A stretch of DNA of 32,242 nucleotides from Micromonosporaceae bacterium. Its GTDB lineage: Bacteria; Actinomycetota; Actinomycetes; Mycobacteriales; Micromonosporaceae. The stretch lies in contig JADGGF010000003.1 of NCBI GenBank assembly GCA_019690055.1, positions 1 to 32,242 on the forward strand, read 5' to 3'. The notes beneath the pieces are model-generated. The model did not search any database, was not told where the DNA came from, and saw only the letters and a program-made list of their open reading frames with translations. The translations under genes and the position numbers were made by a program. Shown one piece after another: positions 2,002 to 3,499 of the stretch (its first letter is position 1; every line of letters starts with the position of its first letter).

Positions 2002-2076
2002 ATGGGCACCCTGCTCACCAAGCGGCGCGCGGTCGACCTGTGCCGTGTGGCCACGTGCCTGTGTCCCCGCCACTGA
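2002..2076 (+). CDS. Cys-rich putative leader peptide MGTLLTKRRAVDLCRVATCLCPRH
   Basis: 25-codon ORF read directly: ATGGGCACCCTGCTCACCAAG...TGTCCCCGCCACTGA. -10-like TAGCCT lies 8 nt before the ATG (leaderless configuration). It sits upstream of cysA and carries the actinobacterial leader motif VDLCRVAxCLC. Confidence 0.85.
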   Translation: MGTLLTKRRAVDLCRVATCLCPRH

Positions 2077-2085
2077 GGGCGGTGT

Positions 2086-2276: not shown

Positions 2277-3125
2277 ATGAGCCGCGAGAACGCGCTCGTC
2301 AGCGCCGACTGGGCCGAGAAGAACCTCGGCGCGGCCGGCATCGTCTTCGTCGAGGTCGACGAGGACACCACCGCCTACGACGCCGGACACATCCCCGGCG
2401 CCGTGAAGCTCGACTGGAAGAAGGACCTGCAGGACCCGGTGCGCCGGGACTTCGTCAACAAGCAGCAGTTCGAGGCGCTGCTCTCGGCGCGGGGCATCAG
2501 CAACGACGACCTCGTGATCCTCTACGGCGGCAACAACAACTGGTTCGCCGCGTACGCGTACTGGTACTTCAAGCTCTACGGCCACGAGAAGGTGCGGCTG
2601 CTCGACGGTGGCCGCAAGAAGTGGGAGCTGGACAACCGTCCGCTGACCACGGAGGTGCCGACGCGGCCGGCCACCACGTACGTCGCCGCCGAGCCGGACC
2701 TGTCCATCCGCGCCTTCCGCGACGAGGTGGTGGCGGCCATCGGAACCAAGAACTTGGTCGATGTTCGCTCGCCCGACGAGTACGCCGGTCGACTGCTGGC
2801 CCCGGCGCACCTGCCGCAGGAGGTGGCGCAGCGGCCGGGCCACATCCCGACCGCGATCAACGTTCCCTGGTCGAAGGCCGCCAACGAGGACGGCACCTTC
2901 AAGTCCGACGAGGAACTGCGGGCCCTCTACGAGGCGGCCGGTCTCGACGGGTCCAAGCCGACCATCGCCTACTGCCGGATCGGTGAGCGCTCGTCGCACA
3001 CCTGGTTCGTGCTGCGGGAGCTGCTCGGCCACCAGGACGTGAAGAACTACGACGGTTCCTGGACCGAGTACGGCTCGCTCGTGGGCGTTCCCGTGGTGCT
3101 CGGCGACCAGCCCGGCACGGCCTGA
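2277..3125 (+). CDS. cysA: Thiosulfate sulfurtransferase / rhodanese (CysA type)
   Basis: 282 aa. Two rhodanese domains, active-site motif CRIGERSSHTWFVL, closely matches mycobacterial CysA2/3 by memory (ILYGGNNNWFAAYAYWYFKLYGHEKV). Confidence 0.95.
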   Translation: MSRENALVSADWAEKNLGAAGIVFVEVDEDTTAYDAGHIPGAVKLDWKKDLQDPVRRDFVNKQQFEALLSARGISNDDLVILYGGNNNWFAAYAYWYFKLYGHEKVRLLDGGRKKWELDNRPLTTEVPTRPATTYVAAEPDLSIRAFRDEVVAAIGTKNLVDVRSPDEYAGRLLAPAHLPQEVAQRPGHIPTAINVPWSKAANEDGTFKSDEELRALYEAAGLDGSKPTIAYCRIGERSSHTWFVLRELLGHQDVKNYDGSWTEYGSLVGVPVVLGDQPGTA

Positions 3126-3142
3126 ACTACTGGAGGATGTCC

Positions 3143-3499
3143 ATGTCTGTGAGCACGACCTCCCCCGCCGCGGGGCTCGCCTCCGCCGCCGACGCGAGCT
3201 GCGGCGCCCCGGCGCAGGACCTGCCCCTGCCGTCGAGCGTCGATCTGACCAAGGAGACGGTGATCAGCGGCGTGGTGACCGTGGGCGACCAGCCGGTCCC
3301 CGGCGCCTACGTGCGGCTCCTCGACGCGACCGGAGAGTTCGCGGCTGAGGTGGTCACCTCGGCCGCCGGCCAGTTCCGGTTCTTCGCGGCGCCGGGCACA
3401 TGGACGCTGCGGGCGCTGTCCCGCGCCGGCACCGGTGACATCCAGGTGACGGCCGACCGCGGCATCACCGAGGTGACGCTGGCCCTGGCCGCGGCCTGA
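3143..3499 (+). CDS. sseC: DUF1416 / SseC-like protein
   Basis: Motif GAYVRLLDATGEFAAEVVTSAAGQFRFFAAPGTWTLRALS. Start moved from 3137 to ATG 3143 because GGAGG at 3132-3136 abuts the 3137 ATG but is well spaced for 3143. Confidence 0.88.
   Translation: MSVSTTSPAAGLASAADASCGAPAQDLPLPSSVDLTKETVISGVVTVGDQPVPGAYVRLLDATGEFAAEVVTSAAGQFRFFAAPGTWTLRALSRAGTGDIQVTADRGITEVTLALAAA

Follow-up and report, generated by a model that had tools for sequence, protein, structure and literature searches.

The cysA and sseC genes of a Micromonosporaceae bacterium (contig JADGGF010000003.1, positions 1 to 32,242; this whole stretch of 32,242 nt is hereafter called the window) raise the question of what a 24-codon open reading frame (ORF) lying just in front of them is for. 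We consider it probable, at roughly 0.85, that cysA-sseC is under a cysteine-responsive, ribosome-mediated attenuator whose leader peptide this ORF encodes; the cysteine response, the direction of control and the release of the cysA ribosome-binding site as output are the parts of this reading that we infer. On the forward strand, the ORF (MGTLLTKRRAVDLCRVATCLCPRH) occupies positions 2002–2076, from an ATG at 2002 to a TGA stop codon at 2074–2076, and carries three Cys codons near its end, namely TGC at 2041–2043, TGC at 2056–2058 and TGT at 2062–2064. A -10 box of the TANNNT type, TAGCCT (1988–1993), ends exactly 8 nt before the ATG, which is the spacing of a leaderless promoter. The untranslated region that follows the leader stop (2077–2276; 142–246 nt in relatives of the same type) contains the cysA Shine-Dalgarno sequence GAGGGAG (2265–2271) and puts the rhodanese start 200 nt after the stop codon. 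It leads to cysA itself (2277–3125), which encodes a cysA/sseA-type thiosulfate sulfurtransferase with two rhodanese domains (Pfam PF00581, two stretches), and then to sseC (3137–3499; DUF1416, Pfam PF07210), all on the same strand. The short ORF with its three Cys codons, the TAGCCT box 8 nt before its ATG and a rhodanese gene about 200 nt downstream had been pointed out in an initial annotation of this DNA, and direct reading of the sequence bears out all three. The upstream neighbour, a gene on the same strand at 1023–1859, has a PF11209 match and is of the LmeA-like phospholipid-binding type.

The peptide belongs to a known family. It scores 53.6 bits (E 1.3e-14) against the NCBIfam model NF042933, "Ms5788A family Cys-rich leader peptide", whose cut-off is 45, and 39.8 bits against the broader model NF042934 ("putative leader peptide", cis_reg_atten), whose cut-off is 27. 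The earlier description of the ORF as unannotated therefore holds for the raw sequence only, because NCBI has a model for the peptide. No Pfam model matched the leader peptide, and the Rfam scan of the window returned no riboswitch or leader family at the gathering score. Of 60 Micromonosporaceae genomes (the window's own counted), 57 have an NF042933 match, as do 128 of 150 genomes of the order; NF042934 matches 15 of 199 genomes across the phylum, up to 11 times in a single genome. In the window's genome, where other Cys-rich leaders were sought by the NF042934 profile only, the one match is the window leader. With a profile score above the cut-off, C-terminal Cys codons and its place as the first ORF 5' of cysA-sseC, the leader ORF is, as judged from its sequence, a real and deeply conserved member of the Ms5788A family. 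One might take this one for a chance ORF, since GC-rich DNA is full of short ORFs (6 kb contained 70 that were 20 aa or longer), but the E value of the family match together with conservation over dozens of genera rules this out, leaving it a probability close to nil.

Loss of the frame among relatives had been set beforehand as the finding that would speak against the peptide; instead, the frame, the leaderless spacing, the C-terminal Cys codons and the place before cysA are all kept. A leader precedes 79 of the 80 cysA loci of named genomes, the nearest named relatives of the window's cysA being those of Phytohabitans, Micromonospora, Asanoa and Actinoplanes. Sixty-eight of the leaders came from a motif search, and the remaining 12 loci were searched by length and Cys content alone; 11 of these 12 still have a leader, in each case with RR[AP][VI]D and a TANNNT box. 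The one exception among the 80 is L109, from a Propionibacteriaceae MAG, in whose upstream 1 kb no leader is recognisable. The TANNNT box stands 6–8 nt 5' of the leader ATG or GTG in 68/68 motif-found leaders, where the start was picked with the aid of the box if several starts were possible, and in 11/11 further leaders.

The Cys codons themselves were expected to be conserved in related genomes, and all three are indeed coded in 73 of 73 Micromonosporaceae loci, the last being TGT every time; elsewhere the number of Cys varies, with a minimum of two, the constant parts being RRx[VI]D and an end that contains Cys. Such ends read CCCLC in Nocardia, CRVGSCLC in Geodermatophilus and HCRVRSALCR in some Nocardioides, and Mycobacterium has runs of up to six Cys. 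In two loci (L155, L156), the first leader Cys is replaced by Gly (RPIDFG...CLC), so that, to go by these relatives' sequences, the first Cys is dispensable in some of them. Together with the presence of the last two in 73/73 loci, this is the pattern that a sensor consisting of the last two Cys codons would predict.

Mycobacteria offer the closest precedents. Cys leader peptides lacking terminators were put forward as candidates in 2005 (PMC1262725), a conserved, ribosome-occupied Cys-rich ORF 5' of cysA2 was reported in 2015 (PMC4633059), and cysteine-responsive attenuation by Ms5788A-type leaders is attributed, for M. smegmatis, to Canestrari 2020 as quoted in PMC9094748, PMC9031893 and PMC13236596. 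A literature search for cysteine leader-peptide attenuation in Micromonospora found none, the match obtained being concerned with ermB. The initial annotation had placed cysA-sseC under the control of cysteine or Cys-tRNA availability through the peptide, and both homology (to the Ms5788A leader and to the reported mycobacterial attenuators) and conservation support this. The likeness to polycysteine leaders that it had drawn is a partial one: the Cys codons do lie near the C-terminus, but they are dispersed as C-x4-C-L-C and form no run. The window leader resembles the Ms5788A leader of mycobacterial cysA2 (NF042933) in its peptide core, leaderless promoter spacing, place before cysA-sseC and C-terminal Cys codons, whereas it differs in having dispersed Cys where mycobacteria have a Cys run, in starting with ATG where the Mycobacterium and Nocardia loci have GTG, and in lacking a DUF4395 gene between leader and cysA. 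A DUF4395-like gene, so called from its resemblance to DUF4395 proteins identified in other loci, occupies that position in Nocardia, Mycobacterium, Geodermatophilus and Lentzea loci (L074, L076, L084, L104); in the Micromonosporaceae the leader is usually directly 5' of cysA, and a separate DUF4395 gene can own a leader. With the NF042934 (cis_reg_atten) and Ms4527A (NF042936) leaders the window peptide shares the RRx[VI]D...C core; unlike the window genome with its single match, those leaders form a broader set found in front of other genes, and genomes of one genus of the class have several of them. If our reading holds, cysteine attenuation via leaderless leader ORFs extends well beyond mycobacteria, into the Micromonosporaceae, and contiguous Cys runs are not needed for it.

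Selection appears to act on more than the Cys codons. Outside the Micromonosporaceae, the eleven-residue core has a pN/pS of 0.16 (19 distinct sequences; this set was chosen by motif, and the 11 leaders not chosen by motif show the same residues), and its Val uses all four codons and its Asp both. Since the residues are kept and the codons are free, the amino acids seem to matter, beyond the need of a plain codon-counting attenuator, and the persistence of RRx[VI]D...LCR amid free synonymous change suggests a nascent-peptide role. One alternative is nascent-peptide arrest, in which the conserved LTxRRx[VI]D...LCR residues would act in the ribosome exit tunnel and pausing at the final Cys codons would depend on the peptide as well as, or instead of, on Cys codon supply. 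Besides the low pN/pS, this alternative is favored by the motif's presence in 11/11 leaders found without requiring it and by single-Cys leaders with the same core before other genes, but mycobacterial leaders, with up to six Cys in a run, have Cys codons in a number and density that fit codon supply, and the conservation of residues could also stem from shared descent and short length; we rate arrest as possible yet unlikely. Codon supply and nascent-peptide arrest are thereby set apart as two hypotheses that simple recoding could separate.

Within the Micromonosporaceae, the codons too are constrained. The majority codon has a mean share of 0.92, whereas invariant residues of matching kinds in the rhodaneses of these genomes give an expectation of 0.84 (p 0.0014), and in 73/73 loci the Ala codon is GCG, the Leu codon CTG and the last Cys codon TGT. 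This synonymous constraint, along with the covarying cis hairpins described below and the leader's unvarying position (always first, with leaderless spacing and before sulfur genes), argues against the peptide being a small trans-acting protein whose place before cysA is mere operon membership, an explanation that residue-level conservation would suit but that we hold to be highly improbable.

As for RNA structure, the window leader gains nothing in folding energy over its shuffles (z +1.0 and +0.9), and because single-sequence folding gave no support, comparative analysis was used. Inside the ORF, hairpin H1 (2026–2049, forward strand; 2026–2033 with 2042–2049) has eight pairs, three of them G-U, and covaries in the Micromonosporaceae. 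Across the 73 distinct loci, Val is replaced by Ile four times (GTC/GTT to ATC/ATT), each time with a TGC-to-TGT change at the pairing position, and by Met six times (GTG to ATG), each time with CGC to CGT. In the best rhodanese tree, an A at column 31 and an A at column 46 each arise four times; the independent H1 pairs on well-supported branches number three and one, and although each goes the way expected, they are too few to reach significance in this tree-based test. In alignment A1 (55 sequences), 99.8% of H1 cells are paired and 9 cells are doubly changed, compared with 1.0 in shuffles (0/500). H1 is not kept in most loci outside the Micromonosporaceae, and this covarying in-ORF hairpin is a further difference from the Ms5788A leader of mycobacterial cysA2. 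In the window, the 5' arm of H1 (2025–2033) has a second near-perfect partner of nine pairs past the stop codon, at 2097–2105 (ACCGCGCGT), which was not seen in relatives.

Hairpin H2 (2067–2082, forward strand; 2067–2071 with 2078–2082) holds the stop codon in its loop, has a probability of 0.78 in the window and shows compensating changes in relatives, where three of its pairs are changed on both sides; in Actinoplanes it is retained with the register shifted. H3 (GTCGCAC/GTGCGAC) and H4 (GCGCG/CGCGC), with two doubly changed pairs each, cross and are therefore alternatives or a pseudoknot; their counterparts are not evident in the window, whose downstream region is divergent when compared with relatives from other genera. 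H5 pairs UGACGG at the stop codon with CCGUCG; in relatives it reaches 99.7% pairing and is incompatible with H2 and H3, and, being nearly invariant, it has no covariation of its own. In the window, the candidate H5 partner of 2078–2083, and so the rival of H2, lies at 2183–2188 on the forward strand. A further segment on that strand, 2150–2160, is complementary to the cysA Shine-Dalgarno region (2263–2271), with nine pairs and a bulge in the MFE fold and an ensemble probability of 0.03–0.12. Counted jointly over H1, H2, H3, an inner helix and the anti-Shine-Dalgarno helix, doubly changed pairs number 10, where shuffles give 3.0 (0/500), a total that relatedness can inflate, as the tool itself warns. 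The two doubly changed pairs that the anti-Shine-Dalgarno helix contributes to it both come from the closely related loci L006 and L018, with a register-shifted segment, and hence are not independent support. Another candidate, H6 (leader columns 43–48 with a segment 5' of the Shine-Dalgarno sequence), was rejected, having one covarying pair but a probability of 0.00 in every modelled state.

We propose that the A of the ATG, or a position very close to it, would be the transcription start and that a ribosome would at once translate the leaderless 5' end. With ample Cys-tRNA, it would reach the stop codon and depart, H2 would form and the leader RNA would be in its off-state; with scarce Cys-tRNA, it would pause at the last two Cys codons, covering the left arm of H2, so that the freed right arm would pair with the distal segment as H5, the downstream leader would refold and cysA would be expressed. 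When a 30-nt ribosome footprint was forced at a chosen codon in alignment A1, the probability of H5, 0.09 in the free RNA, became 0.12 at Cys1, 0.65 at Cys2 and 0.67 at Cys3 (and, trivially, 0.00 at the stop codon, where the footprint covers the arm); at Cys3, H3 fell from 0.38 to 0.22 and H4 rose from 0.28 to 0.39. In this model, the H2/H5 competition is flipped in the predicted direction by a ribosome at Cys2 or Cys3, and only the last two Cys codons flip H5, which fits their full conservation. In the window alone, H1 is formable and H5, strong in relatives, reaches only 0.25 with the ribosome at Cys3; the RNA and peptide-level evidence rests more on relatives than on the window. A fuller reading, which we hold tentatively and at slightly below even odds, is that the Micromonosporaceae leader ORF is dual-coded: a peptide core selected across actinobacteria would share its bases with a multi-helix RNA relay, made up of the in-ORF hairpin, the stop-codon hairpin, the distal competitor and the downstream alternative helices, in which two CCGUC segments would vie for a single GACGG at the stop codon and so register a pause at the last two Cys codons. 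Comparative evidence for a conserved RNA switch in the same bases, together with the peptide-level evidence, may be new, and it provides a concrete model, open to testing, of a mechanism for which conserved attenuator structures had once been reported as lacking.

Concerning the output, stalled ribosomes were reportedly proposed by Canestrari in 2020 to block structures masking the downstream ribosome-binding site. Across the 73 sequences, Shine-Dalgarno accessibility was unchanged by ribosome position (in alignment A1, closed in all states, 0.18–0.19), so the output step is without support from equilibrium folding. Rho-dependent termination would be another output: with the ribosome gone from the stop codon, Rho would load on the C-rich leader and stop transcription before cysA, which a paused ribosome and the refolding would prevent. 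The leader region has no intrinsic terminator of note and is C-rich and G-poor (C 0.40 and G 0.27 overall; mean C 23.6 and G 12.4 in the 58 nt before the Shine-Dalgarno sequence), figures taken for this region by itself, in genomes where C richness is a weak sign. Rho was proposed for mycobacterial cys leaders in 2005 (PMC1262725), but PMC13236596 has the M. smegmatis relatives acting by translation attenuation, and overall we find this output rather doubtful.

A classical transcription attenuator with an intrinsic terminator, in the style of the trp operon, is very unlikely here. The window has one terminator-like site, at 2181–2198 and followed by CGTTCGTTCT, but its hairpin has six pairs, four of them G-C, its T tract is broken, and such sites are within shuffle range (mean 0.3, sd 0.6); it is not kept in relatives, in which there is no conserved terminator hairpin with a U tract. 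The cysteine attenuator that we favor resembles the classical actinobacterial amino-acid attenuators (trp, leuS) in its leader ORF rich in the regulated amino acid and its competing hairpins, and differs from them in lacking a U-tract terminator. The cys leaders of Seliverstov 2005 (PMC1262725) likewise have a short ORF, Cys codons near the stop and no terminator; no conserved hairpins were reported for them, whereas the Micromonosporaceae studied here show covarying helices. The LEU element before leuA (PMC1262725), likened here by its description, also has a leader ORF, a proposed Shine-Dalgarno link and no clear terminator, but differs in its leucine codons and pseudoknot.

Five Micromonosporaceae loci (L139, L140, L141, L143, L145) contain more leader-motif ORFs, some of them single-Cys. 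The genes behind these leaders encode a PF03601 membrane protein, DUF4395, SBP_bac_5 oligopeptide-type binding proteins and a luciferase-like monooxygenase, and a wider set of genes may thus share this leader control.
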